DNA of 64,000 nucleotides. It comes from Neobacillus piezotolerans (GTDB lineage: Bacteria > Bacillota > Bacilli > Bacillales > Cytobacillaceae). The stretch is taken from positions 1 through 64,000 of the forward strand of contig NZ_QNQT01000012.1 of assembly GCF_003362805.1 (NCBI RefSeq). The letters run 5' to 3'. Shown piece by piece: positions 7,748 through 15,465 of this stretch. The first letter of the stretch is position 1. Every line of letters begins with the position of its first letter. A program made the position numbers and the translations under genes. The notes under the pieces were generated by a model. The model searched no databases. It saw only the letters and a program-made list of their open reading frames with translations, and was not told the DNA's origin.

Positions 7748-8170
7748 TCATTTGCCCGTTTCGGCGAATCTCTTGATTCTCTCCCCGATTTCATCTCTGA
7801 CGCGCGTGAAAAATGCCCATTTTTCCGCAACCGTCCCTTCAGCCTTTGCAGGATCATCAAATCCCCAGTGCACCTTGTTTACATGTGGGGGAGTAACTGG
7901 GCAATTGTCAGCCGCATGGCCGCAAAGTGTTACAATCAAGTCCGCATTGTTCAGTATCTCATGGTCAATGGTATCCGATGTTTGTTTTGAAATGTCAATT
8001 CCGGCTTCCTCCATTGCTTTCACGGCATTCGGGTTTAGGCCATGTGCTTCAAGGCCGGCACTTTTTACTTCCCACTCATCGCTATCCAAATATTTTATGG
8101 CCCAGCCTTCCGCCATTTGGCTGCGGCACGAATTCCCTGTACACAAGAAATAAATCGTCTTTTTAGCCAT
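7748..8170 (-). CDS. arsC: Arsenate reductase, thioredoxin-coupled
   Basis: A 140-residue member of the low-molecular-weight phosphatase-like ArsC family that reduces arsenate to arsenite. The anion-binding loop [15 protein letters not shown] carries the nucleophile Cys10 and Cys15, and the disulfide cascade residues are Cys83 and Cys90 in [11 protein letters not shown]. The start ATG at 8170 lies behind AGGCAGGTG; a GTG three codons earlier falls inside that site. It is the last gene of an arsR-acr3-arsC unit on the minus strand, 29 bases after acr3. Confidence 0.95.
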
Positions 8171-8199
8171 ATCGTACACCTGCCTTTTTATAAATGAAT

Positions 8200-9252
8200 T
8201 TAAACCGTTTCTGCTTTAAAATACTTCCGTTTGAACCAATAGGCGACATTTACAAGGGCAATCATCACTGGTACTTCTACAAGCGGCCCAATGACTGCAG
8301 CGAATGCAATGCCGGAATGGATGCCGAATACTCCCACCGCAACCGCGATTGCAAGTTCAAAGTTATTCGACCCAGCGGTAAAAGCCAGTGTAGTCGTCAC
8401 GGGATAGCTGGCCCCTATCTTTCTCCCCATAAAGAAGGAGACGAAGAACATAACTATAAAATATATTAATAACGGTATTGCTATTCGTACAACATCAAGA
8501 GGAAGGGTTACAATTTTATCCCCTTTGAGCGAAAACATCACAATGATTGTAAACAACAAAGCAAGCAAGGTTACCGGACTTATTTTCGGGATAAAAACTT
8601 TCTCGTACCACTGGCGGCCTTTCACTTTCACAAGGATTAACCGCGTCAACATCCCCGAAATAAACGGAATTCCAAGATAAATGAATACTGATTTTGCCAC
8701 TTCCGCCATCGTGATATCAACAATTGCCCCCTCCAGGCCAATCCATTTGGGGAGAACGGTCACAAAGAAGTAAGCATAAACGGAGAAGAATAACAGCTGG
8801 AACACAGAGTTAAACGCAACCAATGCCGCTGCGTATTCTGCATCTCCTTTCGCCAGGTCGTTCCAAACAATGACCATTGCAATACATCTAGCGAGTCCAA
8901 TGATGATAAGGCCTATCATGTATTCAGGCTTATCAGGCAAGAAAATGATAGCCAATACAAACATAAGCGCGGGGCCAATAATCCAATTTTGAACGAGCGA
9001 AAGCCCAAGTACTTTCACATCCTTGAACACACGGCCCATTTCCTCATATCTTACTTTCGCAAGCGGCGGATACATCATCATAATCAATCCGACCGCTAGC
9101 GGAAGGGATGTTGTGCCGATCTGCATACTGTTAAGTCCTTCCACAAAACCCGGATAGACATTTCCAAGAAGGATGCCAAGTGCCATGGCGAAGAAAATCC
9201 ACAGCGTAAGGTATCGATCAAGGAAGGATAACCGCTTTTTTTCAGATCTCAT
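8200..9252 (-). CDS. arsB: Arsenite efflux transporter, ACR3 family
   Basis: A 350-residue protein with about ten membrane helices that exports arsenite. Family marks are the N-terminal [17 protein letters not shown] stretch, the central conserved cysteine in [19 protein letters not shown], and the late segment [17 protein letters not shown]. The start at 9252 has TAGGAGA upstream; an open frame continues further but lies inside arsR. It is 19 bases downstream of arsR and shares its promoter. The protein is ACR3-type although Bacillus naming often uses arsB. Confidence 0.95.
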
Positions 9253-9271
9253 TCCATAATCTCCTATCTGT

Positions 9272-9619
9272 TCAGCAGCCGCAACGCATTGTTGGGCTGC
9301 TTTTAATGATATGTTCCATTTTTTCCGTCTGTTCTGGAACAAATTCCAGGACACTTTCCATAAGAGGATATGCATTGCTGTTTTTATTGAGTGAATAATA
9401 AATCCACTGGCCTTTCCGTTCCTCTTTTACAAGGCCGGCATCCTTTAGCTTCCTTAAGTGCTGGCTGATAGATGGCTGGCTCATGTCGAAAACCTCCAAA
9501 AGTTCGCATACGCACAGATCACGTATATTCAATAGAGCCATGATGGTTAGCCGTGTCTTGTCCCCAAGAAGCTTTAGGACAAGAGAAGTTTGTTCAATTT
9601 CGATTTTGGTATTCAGCAT
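9272..9619 (-). CDS. arsR: ArsR-family repressor of the arsR-acr3-arsC unit
   Basis: A 115-residue winged-helix protein. The DNA-recognition helix region reads [19 protein letters not shown], and the arsenite-binding motif is LCVCEL with Cys36 and Cys38. A further MRCGC tail (Cys113, Cys115) may add ligands. Translation should start at ATG 9619, eight bases after GGAGG; an upstream in-frame start lies in that site. The gene is first in the minus-strand ars unit, and a candidate operator lies in its own promoter. Confidence 0.93.
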
Positions 9620-9644
9620 CACGTCATCCTCCATTCACCTAATT

Positions 9645-9806: not shown

Positions 9807-9824
9807 AATCAAAAAAAATTGATT
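9807..9824. promoter_or_regulatory. ArsR-type operator O1 (upstream of -35)
   Basis: AATCAA and TTGATT arms with a 6-base centre form a perfect dyad. The same element recurs at 9867, 10247 and 10269, always in front of genes of the second ars-like unit. Confidence 0.7.
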
Positions 9825-9831
9825 TTATTTG

Positions 9832-9860
9832 TTGCAATCAGGAAATGATGGGATTATAAT
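9832..9860 (+). promoter_or_regulatory. Promoter of the second arsR unit
   Basis: TTGCAA (9832-9837) and TATAAT (9855-9860) are separated by exactly 17 bases. It is bracketed by operators O1 and O2, so repressor bound at both would block it. Confidence 0.8.
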
Positions 9861-9866
9861 ACAATT

Positions 9867-9884
9867 AATCAAAAATATTTGATG
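9867..9884. promoter_or_regulatory. ArsR-type operator O2 (at the transcription start)
   Basis: AATCAA and TTGATG arms with a 6-base centre, beginning seven bases after the -10 box and ending at the ribosome binding site of the second arsR gene. Confidence 0.7.
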
Positions 9885-9899
9885 AAAAGGAGATGCCAA

Positions 9900-10226
9900 A
9901 TGGAAAAGACAATTCCGCTGACCGATGTTTCCCTGCAGGATACTTTTGCAGCTTACGAGCAAAAATTCAAAGCACTCGCCGACCAAAAAAGGCTGCAGAT
10001 TTTAAACTTGCTTTGCCAGCAGGAATCAATCTGTGTTTGCGATTTAGCGGACATGATCGACATGCAGCAATCAAAGCTATCATACCACTTGAAGATTCTG
10101 CTTGACGCCGATTTGATCTTGAAGGAAACGAAAGGCACCTGGAGCTATTACACCATAAACCAAAAGGAAATCAATCACTTGCTGTCACCTGAGTTATGCT
10201 GCCTGTTCAGGCCTACGTGCTGTTAG
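9900..10226 (+). CDS. Second ArsR-family metalloid/metal repressor
   Basis: A 108-residue winged-helix protein with the ArsR metal motif SICVCDL (Cys45, Cys47) in the recognition-helix region, followed by QQSKLSYHLKILLDADLI. The C-terminus carries two further Cys pairs, Cys100-Cys101 and Cys107-Cys108, which is unusual and could form a trivalent arsenic or antimony site. ATG 9900 lies behind AAAAGGAGA. It is the first gene of a plus-strand unit with a small protein, a permease and a cysteine-rich peptide. It is only distantly similar to the neighbouring ArsR, so the two are not a recent duplication. Confidence 0.9.
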   Translation: MEKTIPLTDVSLQDTFAAYEQKFKALADQKRLQILNLLCQQESICVCDLADMIDMQQSKLSYHLKILLDADLILKETKGTWSYYTINQKEINHLLSPELCCLFRPTCC

Positions 10227-10246
10227 GCCTTCAGGCCCGGATTATA

Positions 10247-10264
10247 AATCAAGTTTTTTTGATA
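10247..10264. promoter_or_regulatory. ArsR-type operator O3
   Basis: AATCAA and TTGATA arms around GTTTTT, 20 bases after the stop codon of the second arsR gene. Together with O4 it could allow separate control of the permease part of the unit. Confidence 0.6.
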
Positions 10265-10268
10265 ATTA

Positions 10269-10286
10269 AATCAACTTTATTTGATT
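10269..10286. promoter_or_regulatory. ArsR-type operator O4
   Basis: AATCAA and TTGATT arms around CTTTAT form a perfect dyad that ends directly at the AAGGAGG site of the next gene. Its start is 22 bases from O3. Confidence 0.65.
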
Positions 10287-10301
10287 AAGGAGGAATATAC
10301 A

Positions 10302-10478
10302 ATGACAATGTACGATATTGAACTGATGGTTGAAGTAAAACATCGGGAAATTGAAGAGAACGCAAAGGACGCCTGGAAATATTCCGTTCTGAAGGAAGAA
10401 AAAGACCTTTTCCGATTTTTTAAAAAGAAAAAACCGCAAGCAAAGATTCACGATACCCCATGCTTGTGCGAGGCATAG
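10302..10478 (+). CDS. Small charged protein with C-terminal CxC
   Basis: A 58-residue protein, rich in Lys and Glu, with no membrane segment. It starts at ATG 10302 seven bases after AGGAGG. Its tail reads DTPCLCEA, with Cys54 and Cys56 forming a CxC pair similar to the metal motif in ArsR proteins. I recognise no family. Its place between the second arsR and the permease, with 11 bases to the permease gene, suggests it works with the permease, perhaps as a metalloid-binding accessory. That role is inference. Confidence 0.75.
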   Translation: MTMYDIELMVEVKHREIEENAKDAWKYSVLKEEKDLFRFFKKKKPQAKIHDTPCLCEA

Positions 10479-10489
10479 GAGGCTAAGTA

Positions 10490-11353
10490 ATGATGGACTT
10501 TTTAAAAAGTTTTCTTGGAATCGCGGCCGAACTGACCATCCTTTTTATTATAATCAGCTTTGTCATCAGCCTCCTTCAAGGCTATATTCCATATGAGAAA
10601 ATTGAAAGGGAGCTGACTGGAAGCAATAAATTCAGTGCAAGCATCATCGCCATTGTTTTCGCTTTTATCACACCATTTTGCTCTTGTTCCACTATCCCGG
10701 TTGTTGTCAACATGCTGAAGAATAGGATTCCATTTTCAATCACAATGGTCTTCCTATTCGCCTCGCCAGTCCTGGATCCAACAATCCTGACAATCATGGG
10801 AGTCGTCATGGGATGGAAAGTAACGGTTCTTTACACATTAATCACTTCTATGTTTTCAATTTTAATCGGTTATACGCTCGATAAACTCGGGTTTGAACGA
10901 TATGTGAAAAATGTTGTGATGAAGGGATATGAGCAATCAAACGAGAAATTCAACTGGAAGTACGCGGTGGGCGAAACACTTTCCCTTATGAAAAGTGTCT
11001 ACCCTTATTTGCTGATTGGGGCTCTTATCGGGGCGGCGATTCATGGGTTGGTTCCAACACACTTTATCACTGAATGGTTTGGACAGGACAATTGGTGGTT
11101 AATACCAATCGCGGCCATCGTGGGCATTCCTTTGTATATTCGTTTATCAAGCATGATCCCAATCTCCCAGATCTTGATTGCAAAAGGTATGGCACTTGGC
11201 CCTGTTATGGCGCTCATGATTTCTTCCGCCGGTGCAAGCCTTCCGGAGGTTGTTCTTTTAAAGTCGATCTTCCGCAAACAGCTTGTCATCGCGTTTATTC
11301 TTTCTGTCATTACAATGAGCACCGTCTCAGGTTTTATATTCTTCTTGGTTTGA
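10490..11353 (+). CDS. ArsP/YraQ-type permease
   Basis: A 287-residue integral membrane protein of the permease family formerly called DUF318. The signature TPFCSCSTIPV (Cys64 and Cys66) in an early helix is the motif known from ArsP, which exports trivalent organoarsenicals. A second half contains SSAGASLPEVVLLKSIF. ATG 10490 follows GGAGG. It is preceded by ArsR and by operators O3/O4, which supports a role in arsenic or related metalloid export. The true substrate (methylarsenite, another thiol-binding species) cannot be read from sequence. Confidence 0.85.
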   Translation: MMDFLKSFLGIAAELTILFIIISFVISLLQGYIPYEKIERELTGSNKFSASIIAIVFAFITPFCSCSTIPVVVNMLKNRIPFSITMVFLFASPVLDPTILTIMGVVMGWKVTVLYTLITSMFSILIGYTLDKLGFERYVKNVVMKGYEQSNEKFNWKYAVGETLSLMKSVYPYLLIGALIGAAIHGLVPTHFITEWFGQDNWWLIPIAAIVGIPLYIRLSSMIPISQILIAKGMALGPVMALMISSAGASLPEVVLLKSIFRKQLVIAFILSVITMSTVSGFIFFLV

Positions 11354-11403
11354 TACGACCTTTATATCAAAAATTATTAATTTATACAAGGAGGTGAACA
11401 GGA

Positions 11404-11544
11404 ATGCTTGATTTCATTAAGAAATTCCTAGGACAGAACCCAGATGCCGATTGCTGTTCTATAGAAATTACAGAGGTTGAAGATGATCAAAGCAAAGGTG
11501 AGCTCTGCTGTAACAGCCAATCCAATAAAAAATGCTGCAAGTAA
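11404..11544 (+). CDS. Cysteine-rich 46-residue protein with three CC pairs
   Basis: This short frame has a near-perfect GGAGGTG site eight bases before ATG 11404 and ends at TAA 11544, immediately before a terminator. It has an amphipathic start (MLDFIKKFLGQNP), an acidic middle, and three adjacent Cys pairs at 17-18, 35-36 and 44-45, so 13 percent of its residues are Cys. No family is recognised. Vicinal cysteines bind trivalent arsenic and soft metals well, so a scavenger or chaperone that hands substrate to the permease is a reasonable inference. Confidence 0.78.
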   Translation: MLDFIKKFLGQNPDADCCSIEITEVEDDQSKGELCCNSQSNKKCCK

Positions 11545-11556
11545 GGAATTCATTTT

Positions 11557-11585
11557 GGTACCTATATGTTTTATAGGTGCCTTTT
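11557..11585 (+). terminator. Terminator of the second ars-like unit
   Basis: GGTACCTATA pairs with TATAGGTGCC (one G-T pair) and is followed by TTTTCC. Confidence 0.8.
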
Positions 11586-14455: not shown

Positions 14456-15394
14456 TCAGTCTAAATTCCTGACTTCAAACGGCAGCAGCTTCCGTTCAAT
14501 TCGTTCCCTTAACTGTTCGTACCGCGAAGGAAGCATCAATTTTCCGCCCATTGTTTCCTGCGACTCATCATGGGCAAATCCGGGAGGGTCCGTCGCGATT
14601 TCAAAAAGGATTTCGCCATGTTCCCTGAAATAGATGGCATTGAAATAATTCCTGTCCTGTACAGGCGTTACGCCGTACCCATTTGAAGCAACGTATTTTT
14701 GCCAGTCCAATTGATCCTCATCATCGATAGCCCTCCAAGCAATGTGGTGGACAGTCCCTACGCCCATTTGGCCCCGTCCAGTTGGAATTGCTTTTAAATC
14801 GATGACATTTCCGATTTCGCCTGAAGAACGGAAGCGGATGAAGTCATCTGCACTGGCAACGAATTCAAGCCCCATAACTCTTTCAAGCAAGTCTGCTGTT
14901 TTATCAGGCTGAGCGGAAAAGAGAGTTGCCCCTCCAAATCCCTTAATGGCCACTTCCGGAGTAACCTCGCCGAAAGTCCATTCGTTTAGTTCTCCTTGTT
15001 CCCTTTCAACAATCTCAAGGCGCAAGCCATGGGTGTCCTCGAATTGCAGATACTTCTCGCCGAATCGCTCTGTTTTCGTAAATGGAATTTGAAACTTTTC
15101 AAGCCTCTTTTCCCAGAACTCCATGGCTCCTGAAGGGACTGCGTAAGAAGTTACCCCTACCTGTCCATCGCCAATTCTTCCTTGGTATGCACCTGCCCAT
15201 GGGAAGAAGGTAATAATCGTTCCTGGCTGACCGCCGTTATTCCCGAAATAAAGGTGATACGTACCGGGATCATCAAAATTGACGGTTTGCTTAACTAGAC
15301 GCAAGCCCAGTACTCCTGCATAGAAATCAACGTTTTCCTGAGGATGGCCTACTATAGCTGTAATATGATGGATTCCCATTGTTTTTTTGCTCAT
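14456..15394 (-). CDS. mhqO: Ring-cleaving dioxygenase, MhqO-like (VOC family)
   Basis: A 312-residue protein of two vicinal oxygen chelate modules. Metal ligand candidates are the His in MGIHHITAI near residue 9, HHIAWRA in the second half, and Glu in EILFEIATDPPGF. The family opens hydroquinone or catechol rings with a non-haem metal. It is the first gene of the operon, preceded by a consensus promoter and a dyad like the B. subtilis MhqR box. ATG 15394 follows GGAG; a GTG three codons earlier is closer to the site than usual. Confidence 0.9.
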   Translation of the reverse strand: MSKKTMGIHHITAIVGHPQENVDFYAGVLGLRLVKQTVNFDDPGTYHLYFGNNGGQPGTIITFFPWAGAYQGRIGDGQVGVTSYAVPSGAMEFWEKRLEKFQIPFTKTERFGEKYLQFEDTHGLRLEIVEREQGELNEWTFGEVTPEVAIKGFGGATLFSAQPDKTADLLERVMGLEFVASADDFIRFRSSGEIGNVIDLKAIPTGRGQMGVGTVHHIAWRAIDDEDQLDWQKYVASNGYGVTPVQDRNYFNAIYFREHGEILFEIATDPPGFAHDESQETMGGKLMLPSRYEQLRERIERKLLPFEVRNLD

Positions 15395-15465
15395 TTTTTT
15401 CACTCCTAAGGCTAACTATTTGATATTACATTGGGATAAAGCAAATCAAATACCTTTAATTTAAA

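Follow-up and report, generated by a model that had tools for sequence, protein, structure and literature searches.

What might two very small cysteine-rich proteins be doing beside an arsenical-type permease? The question is raised by a four-gene unit in a 64,000-nucleotide (nt) stretch of the Neobacillus piezotolerans genome (contig NZ_QNQT01000012.1, positions 1 to 64,000; hereafter the window), in which an arsR gene is followed by the genes for a 58-residue protein with a Cys-containing tail, a permease of the ArsP_1 family and a 46-residue micropeptide bearing three pairs of adjacent cysteines (the CC peptide). An initial annotation, made from the sequence of this DNA, had proposed a new metalloid export module. 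Our analysis supports as likely a metalloid export unit under an ArsR with extra Cys pairs, to which the small Cys proteins belong, and we put at roughly 60% the probability that it exports trivalent arsenicals under the control of ArsR, by way of a dedicated thiol micropeptide that would hand the arsenical to the permease. The CC peptide is not a chance open reading frame (ORF) but a conserved micropeptide family tied to one permease clade, and its membership in the predicted export unit is well supported.

As the initial annotation had described, the four genes are all present and run in one direction, on the plus strand. The ArsR carries two additional Cys pairs at its end (ELCCLFRPTCC; Cys100-Cys101-x5-Cys107-Cys108) besides Cys45-Val-Cys47 (positions counted by hand), the permease has the FCSCS motif with C64 and C66 and no further Cys, and the micropeptide has its three CC pairs and an ORF preceded by AAGGAGGTGAACAGG. 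The CLC motif with which the 58-residue protein had been said to end is present, but lies near the C-terminus (PCLCEA) rather than at it. As for the novelty of the module, it stands for the small proteins, neither of which has a named family: the 46-residue peptide matched no Pfam or NCBIfam family at E 1 and no PHROG at E 0.1, the 58-residue protein matched no Pfam or NCBIfam family over the cut-off and no PHROG at E 0.1, and a search of the open full-text literature (subscription papers lay outside its scope) found no description of either. It does not extend to the permease, since the ArsP_1 type and its link to ArsR have already been reported (PMC7374977, cited, like the other papers below, for the accessible part of its text). 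Among solved structures, no relative was found with the peptide profile at E 1 or with the permease profile at E 0.01.

Both small proteins turn up next to the permease across many genera, and for the CC peptide this linkage supports its place in the unit. We examined 80 named loci (the best 80 of 150 permease relatives in a scan of named genomes) with family models seeded with peptides found beside permeases, and a CC peptide lies near the permease in 73 of them, on the 3′ side of the same strand in 59 and on the divergent side upstream in 14; in 49 of the 59 loci with the 3′ arrangement, the peptide starts 6–55 nt past the permease stop. Conservation of the small proteins next to the permease in other genomes, on which the original proposal had been made to depend, is therefore found for the CC peptide and only in part for the 58-residue protein, whose family is present in 38 of the 80 loci. 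On the permease tree, the place of the peptide (3′, divergent or none) needs at least 12 changes, the class of regulator 3 and the presence of the 58-residue protein 10, so that the peptide is mostly kept although its position shifts.

Genome-wide searches, which ignore position, yet use a profile built from permease-adjacent peptides, gave a concordant picture. Within the bacterial family, the permease was found in 80 of 193 genomes at E 1e-30 and the CC peptide, queried as a single sequence, in 36 of 193 at E 0.01. Across 299 genomes of the order, the peptide profile matched 88 (E 0.01) and the permease profile 101 (E 1e-75), with both in 85, the peptide only in 3, the permease only in 16 and neither in 195 (Fisher p 8e-54, kinship ignored; as related genomes are present in the sample, p-values overstate independence). 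Judged by eye, 12 of the 16 permease-only genomes do show a CC peptide adjoining the permease or on its divergent side, which brings the association to 97 of 101, and two of the remaining four belong to genus g35, seven other sampled members of which keep the peptide apart from the permease. A peptide-first search outside the family found the permease within 1.5 kb in 68 of 80 fetched places, mostly 15–100 nt upstream (80 of 83 match rows were fetched, each of the other three being a second fragment or second hit from a genome already in the set). At the class level, the peptide was detected in 27 of 299 genomes at E 0.001, and the 26 class loci, some of which repeat one genome and three of which come from the order, had the permease within a 1.5-kb flank in 24, a MarR gene in 17 and an ArsN-like gene in 11 (the last being a label, to which no cut-off was applied).

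The peptide sequences themselves bear the marks of selection for paired thiols. Over 71 distinct peptides, 350 of the 366 Cys residues lie in CC pairs, with one to four pairs per peptide, and in 70 of the 71 the pair is followed by x-[VILM]-x-[VILF]; CC-x-V-x-I-E-E-V units stand in tandem in L303, L289 and a Cupriavidus plasmid, the last with three CC units. The N-terminal segment is basic, with a mean charge of +2.45. In 11 close pairs, the pooled ratio of nonsynonymous to synonymous change (pN/pS) was 0.23 for the CC peptide and 0.08 for the permease, and in the 7 of these pairs having the gene it was 0.26 for the 58-residue family, indicating purifying selection on both small proteins. The TPFCSCS motif of the permease is invariant in 26 and in 40 aligned relatives.

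Further evidence comes from an operator-like palindrome. Exact ATCAA-N6-TTGAT occurs four times in the window, always within the unit, versus 0.23 expected (the largest of 100 shuffles gave 3); with one mismatch allowed, the count in the window is not far above chance (10 found versus 5.1 expected). The whole 4.53 Mb host genome contains seven sites versus one for a control pattern, and of those elsewhere two fall inside coding frames and the third lies about 200 nt before a 199-residue ORF with no visible arsenic link. All 64 named loci with an ArsR have the palindrome both upstream of arsR and in the interval from arsR to the permease, and 11 have it after the permease as well, compared with a background of six sites in the remaining 657 kb of these loci. 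Three Staphylococcaceae plasmids (L320, L330, L333) likewise have it ahead of the permease. The most telling cases are peptides lying apart from any permease, 10 of 12 of which have one to three exact palindromes within 300 nt upstream, and one of the two exceptions (L231) lies at a contig end. In G409, for example, the permease is at 1.96 Mb and the peptide at 1.47 Mb on the same contig, with two exact palindromes before the peptide. Judging from the palindromes of the separated copies, relocation does not seem to take the peptide out of the regulon.

The regulator in the 80 named loci is an ArsR with a CC tail in 64, a MarR-type protein with CC pairs in nine and neither in seven, and each class would exert its control through its own palindrome. 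In the MarR-type loci (L151, L161, L168, L172, L173, L176, L177, L179, L181), a MarR with CC near both ends takes the place of ArsR within part of the clade, and upstream of its gene a different palindrome, TTGCA-N3-TGCAA, covers the −35 region at the promoter (exact in seven of the nine, with one mismatch in two, as judged by eye). This protein is a candidate for a new arsenical-sensing MarR. One of these loci, L172 (Bacillus horikoshii FJAT-14233), is without the peptide.

As regards the ArsR, a C-terminal CC is present in 63 of the 64 proteins, the exception (L171) reading its end in another frame; four C-terminal Cys residues occur in 26, three in 27 and two in 10, and CVC in 57. The site of AfArsR (type 2) is recognizable in the window's protein, where Cys100, 101 and 107 repeat the arrangement of a Cys-Cys pair plus a Cys six residues on, found at 95/96/102 in AfArsR (PMC13236881). 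At least three C-terminal Cys, a count that leaves spacing aside, are present in 53 of the 64 relatives. An equivalent of the type 1 Cys32-Cys34-Cys37 site of R773 was not found: CVC is present, and the residue three past its second Cys is Ala (by eye). AfArsR binds As(III) at 95/96/102, and SpArsR, which has only a Cys pair, as do 10 of the 64 relatives here, answers methylarsenite and not arsenite (PMC13236881, PMC11868830). Unlike both, relatives of the present ArsR have CVC near the DNA-binding helix (57/64) and in part a fourth C-terminal Cys (26/64). Given the AfArsR-like spacing and the SpArsR precedent, the ArsR would be expected to sense trivalent arsenicals, whether inorganic, organic or both.

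Taken together, these features suggest the following route. The ArsR would sit on the ATCAA-N6-TTGAT palindromes upstream of both arsR itself and the permease genes, and would be released from them when a trivalent arsenical binds its C-terminal cysteines. In the cytoplasm, the CC micropeptide would hold the arsenical between its vicinal thiols, shielding other proteins, and would transfer it to the permease residues C64/C66 in a thiol exchange. The permease in turn would expel the compound, with methylarsenite or aromatic trivalent arsenicals as the likeliest substrates and arsenite or antimonite as possible ones. The 58-residue protein, with a different N-terminus and a similar Cys tail, may be an optional second carrier. 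The carrier role is hinted at by the near-exclusive pairing of the Cys residues, the tandem CC units of some loci, the link with one permease clade and the extra Cys residues of some permeases lacking the peptide.

The last of these points comes from plasmids, where 45 records had a permease relative at E 1e-40 and 16 of these were examined in detail. In 9 of the 16, a CC peptide follows the permease: in Paenibacillus, Priestia filamentosa, P. megaterium, Staphylococcus sp. 693-2 (poultry litter), S. warneri and Mammaliicoccus lentus (chickens), and further afield in Corynebacterium L2-79-05 (poultry litter), Arthrobacter and Cupriavidus, the Arthrobacter peptide, with CCGAQI, being recognized on inspection, outside the strict motif scan. 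None of the nine permeases accompanied by the peptide has a Cys beyond C-S-C, whereas four of the seven without it (Ruegeria, Pseudoalteromonas, Natrinema, Halocatena) have extra Cys at residues 159–171, as CC in the two haloarchaea, and the other three (Arenibacter, Neotabrizicola, Comamonas) lie directly beside a gene annotated as thioredoxin family. The contrast of 0/9 and 4/7, albeit in a small sample, suggests that the thiol is supplied either in trans or in cis. The pattern is not universal: the 16 permeases of the order's permease-only genomes have no Cys beyond the two, and four of them are without a peptide nearby. A broader proposal, to which we would give slightly less than even odds, is that the peptide represents a novel type of arsenic carrier, a micropeptide built from repeatable CC-x-[VI]-x-I-E-E-V units and loading a permease for which no ATPase is known, with the thiol provided in three ways depending on the lineage, namely by a separate peptide, by mid-permease Cys (Ruegeria, Pseudoalteromonas and two haloarchaea) or perhaps by a thioredoxin-like partner.

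The thioredoxin neighbours, of which one sequence was inspected, can also be taken to mean that the CC peptide is a thiol-redox partner, which either reduces the arsenical (for example, a pentavalent organoarsenical to its trivalent exported form) or maintains the permease thiols in reduced form, a task that small thioredoxin-like proteins may have next to other ArsP_1 permeases. Thioredoxin-type genes have indeed been reported in ars operons (PMC2963123). However, a reductase would not normally have vicinal CC pairs, which in some loci stand in tandem, and no redox family of Pfam or NCBIfam matches the peptide, and we regard this role as unlikely. Somewhat less probable still is a purely regulatory peptide with no part in transport, acting as an ArsD-like repressor or as an arsenical sponge that tunes the induction of ArsR or MarR; it would explain why the peptide, judged by the palindrome, belongs to the regulon even when separated from the permease and why it is kept with either regulator, but with two unrelated regulator classes on the one hand and a permease in 85 of 88 peptide genomes on the other, the peptide follows the permease more than any one regulator. 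Its tight linkage to the permease, its basic N-terminal segment and its close spacing behind the permease gene would also suit a structural or assembly subunit that binds the permease for folding or activity and uses its Cys pairs to coordinate zinc or another structural metal, yet the variable length of the peptide, its one to four CC pairs and the tandem repetition of the unit argue against one fixed site and make this a distinctly improbable role. That the small ORFs are spurious or neutral passengers, as their size and lack of annotation might imply, is next to impossible in light of the purifying selection, adjacency, co-occurrence and shared palindrome, and for the CC peptide we regard it as refuted.

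Among the conceivable exact substrates (organoarsenical, arsenite, antimonite), an organic arsenical would seem somewhat better than an even bet. ArsI is found near the permease in 7 of the 80 named loci (two of the seven were scored, both over the cut-off), ArsM and ArsN1a stand together beside one permease (L094), and an annotated arsenite methyltransferase adjoins the Natrinema permease. Several plasmid homologues are from poultry litter or chickens, as listed above. Aromatic arsenicals have been fed to poultry. In the competing view, organoarsenicals are not the cargo, and the unit exports inorganic As(III), Sb(III) or some other thiophilic ion (Bi, Cu, Zn, Hg), a possibility that we rank as a minority one, albeit with real weight. 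It draws on arsC, which is near the unit in 37 of the 80 loci, on the three or four C-terminal Cys of most ArsR relatives and on distant ArsP_1 relatives named as Cu/Zn or SaoE exporters. Against it, the divergent operon of the host already contains ACR3 for As(III), and Campylobacter ArsP transports trivalent organoarsenicals out of the cell but does not export arsenite (PMC6205960).

Several observations nevertheless weigh against an organoarsenical exporter loaded by the CC peptide. No CC peptide was found in the stretch around 7 of the 80 named permeases, nor, by the strict motif scan, in 7 of the 16 plasmid records. Support is weak (mean z 0.45) for an amphipathic N-terminal helix by which the peptide might be anchored at the membrane. 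The predominance of at least three C-terminal Cys among the ArsR proteins fits the sensing of inorganic As(III). At the genome level, the permease shows no enrichment with organoarsenical genes (matches over the cut-off, counted by hand), being present in 13 of 54 ArsI genomes (18 expected) and 6 of 25 ArsN1a genomes (8 expected). ArsN-like neighbours occur in 12 of the 80 loci, and 4 of the 8 scored pass the ArsN1a cut-off (L116, L151, L173, L181); to speak of ArsN next door in all 12 would be an overstatement, as L122, L147, L149 and L178 fail it. Finally, the 80 named loci yielded no ArsM, and none of the eight genomes of the genus has one over the cut-off, so that any organic substrate would have to come from outside.

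The 58-residue protein belongs to what we call the AWK family, after its core. Small proteins with tail motifs like those of the CC peptide are also encoded upstream of the permease at L181:5749-5958 (plus strand; CCEIKIQEVCC), L085 and L086. The 58-residue and CC-peptide families may share a carrier tail, as these similarities suggest. A third small family ('MTVNHASxLKKxYFLxY...', mostly 65–110 residues), for which no Pfam or NCBIfam family scored over the cut-off, is found in 12 of the 80 named loci (e.g. L116:4589-4795 on the minus strand, L118:7028-7360 and L177:7028-7234 on the plus strand) and on three Staphylococcaceae plasmids (e.g. L320:4334-4528, plus strand); it lies outside the unit of the window.

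Some variants of the peptide and permease genes were encountered along the way. The peptide gene of Bacillus sp. FJAT-27245 (L105:6914-7027, plus strand) has an in-frame TGA with loss of the last CC pair, the only such case flagged among the 36 family matches, and we read it as a shortened copy. Selenocysteine was considered here and rejected, since the sequence after the TGA resembles a terminator hairpin (by eye) and sister copies are intact. Another in-frame TGA lies near the permease start in one relative (L052 / G092), with intact copies in sister genomes. A tRNA-Sec scored over the Rfam cut-off in all eight genomes of the window's genus (G000, G017-G023), so the genus may make selenoproteins. 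In Tumebacillus (L176:6875-7234, plus strand), the CC peptide is fused to a stretch resembling, by eye, the carboxymuconolactone-decarboxylase family, and on the Priestia filamentosa plasmid (L319:2857-3156, minus strand), a separate gene annotated to that family and ending in CCQ lies beside the same type of locus. A gene resembling one for an M28-type peptidase is placed between permease and peptide in L110 (from about 6907), and a similar one directly 3′ of the peptide in L206 (near 6170). The records titled Chryseobacterium sp. ISL-80 and Pseudomonas sp. ISL-84 (L108, L117) carry Bacillus-like loci and are probably mislabelled.

The features of the window are collected in the table. The divergent arsR-acr3-arsC operon is on the minus strand (9634-7748), upstream of the four-gene unit; like the four palindromes and the hairpin behind the CC peptide, it had gone unremarked in the initial annotation. 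Promoter-like matches are not above chance in number in the stretch (5 found versus 6.3 in shuffles). Near the unit, a gene at 14456-15403 (minus strand) encodes a protein beginning IHHITAIVGHPQENVDFYAG, presumably ring-cleaving-dioxygenase-like, and a similar gene is located upstream of the permease locus in L063.

Table. Coordinates of the export unit and of neighbouring features in the window
Feature	Coordinates	Strand	Remarks
arsC, arsenate reductase (thioredoxin type)	7748..8167	-	TIGR02691 224.8 bits, cut-off 174.3; longer frame starts at 8179
ACR3 arsenite exporter, divergent operon	8200..9255	-	TIGR00832 462.5 bits, cut-off 282.8
Second arsR, in divergent arsenic operon	9272..9634	-	97.9 bits, cut-off 55
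Operator-like palindrome ATCAA-N6-TTGAT, 1 of 4	9808..9823	.	
Promoter-like TTGCAA-17-TATAAT, between operators 1 and 2	9832..9860	+	Consensus match only, 10/12
Operator-like palindrome, 2 of 4	9868..9883	.	
arsR	9900..10226	+	108 residues, winged-helix repressor; HTH_metalloreg NF033788 92.5 bits (cut-off 55); HTH_5 57.7 bits (cut-off 22)
Operator-like palindrome, 3 of 4, between arsR and the 58-residue gene	10248..10263	.	
Operator-like palindrome, 4 of 4	10270..10285	.	
58-residue small Cys protein, AWK family	10302..10478	+	IExxAxxAWK core, Cys tail
ArsP_1 permease	10490..11353	+	287 residues, TPFCSCS; PF03773 181.2 bits, cut-off 32.3
CC micropeptide	11404..11544	+	46 residues, three CC pairs, motif CC-x-[VIL]-x-[VIF]-x-EV
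Terminator-like hairpin with T tail, 3′ of the CC peptide	11557..11581	+	Consensus match only

A 2025 review noted that arsP, arsJ and arsK were undetected in ars operons of Bacillus and left open the matter of organoarsenical permeases in the genus (PMC12607644). The unit described here, whose permease occurs in 101 of the 299 genomes sampled from the order, is a concrete candidate for an organoarsenical exporter in Bacillaceae. It also makes testable how an exporter obtains a substrate that sticks to free thiols all over the cell. The CC peptide is small enough for synthesis and direct titration and, if the carrier reading is true, would provide a ready-made binding tag for trivalent arsenicals.

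How does the unit compare with known systems? With ArsP of the Campylobacter jejuni type, set side by side by description, the permease shares the Pfam family ArsP_1, the C(S/T)C motif with TPF directly before it, a mark of ArsP cluster 2 (PMC4435449), and an arsR neighbour. It differs in its length of about 287 residues, its own clade and its CC micropeptide partner, and no such partner is mentioned in the accessible parts of PMC4435449, PMC6205960 and PMC2963123. The SaoE and SO_0444 permeases of NCBIfam belong to the same superfamily (E 1.4e-25 and 7.2e-24); an identity as SaoE or as a Cu/Zn exporter was rejected, as the scores of 90.3 and 84.6 bits are below the respective cut-offs of 325 and 300. 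An Exiguobacterium arsP that is accompanied by a second arsR of its own responds to As(III) and As(V), with weaker induction than that of other transporters, and the accessible text mentions no small proteins beside it (PMC7374977); three Exiguobacterium loci of our set (L124, L135, L143) have the present type of permease together with ArsR and a CC peptide, the published arsP being likened to them by description only. A small Cys-rich hypothetical protein suspected of an arsenic role has been described in the same genus and assigned to the DnaJ Cys-rich superfamily, but it adjoins acr3 rather than an arsP-type permease, and by this description we set it apart from the CC peptide (PMC9671657). 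On the Staphylococcus plasmid pLEW6932, both arsDA and, divergently, an arsR-permease-CC peptide unit are present. ArsD of plasmid R773 has three vicinal Cys pairs in about 120 residues. The CC peptide would resemble it as a small cytosolic protein with three vicinal Cys pairs that serves an arsenic exporter, and is unlike it in matching no family model, in its 46 residues and in having as its partner a permease with no known ATPase.

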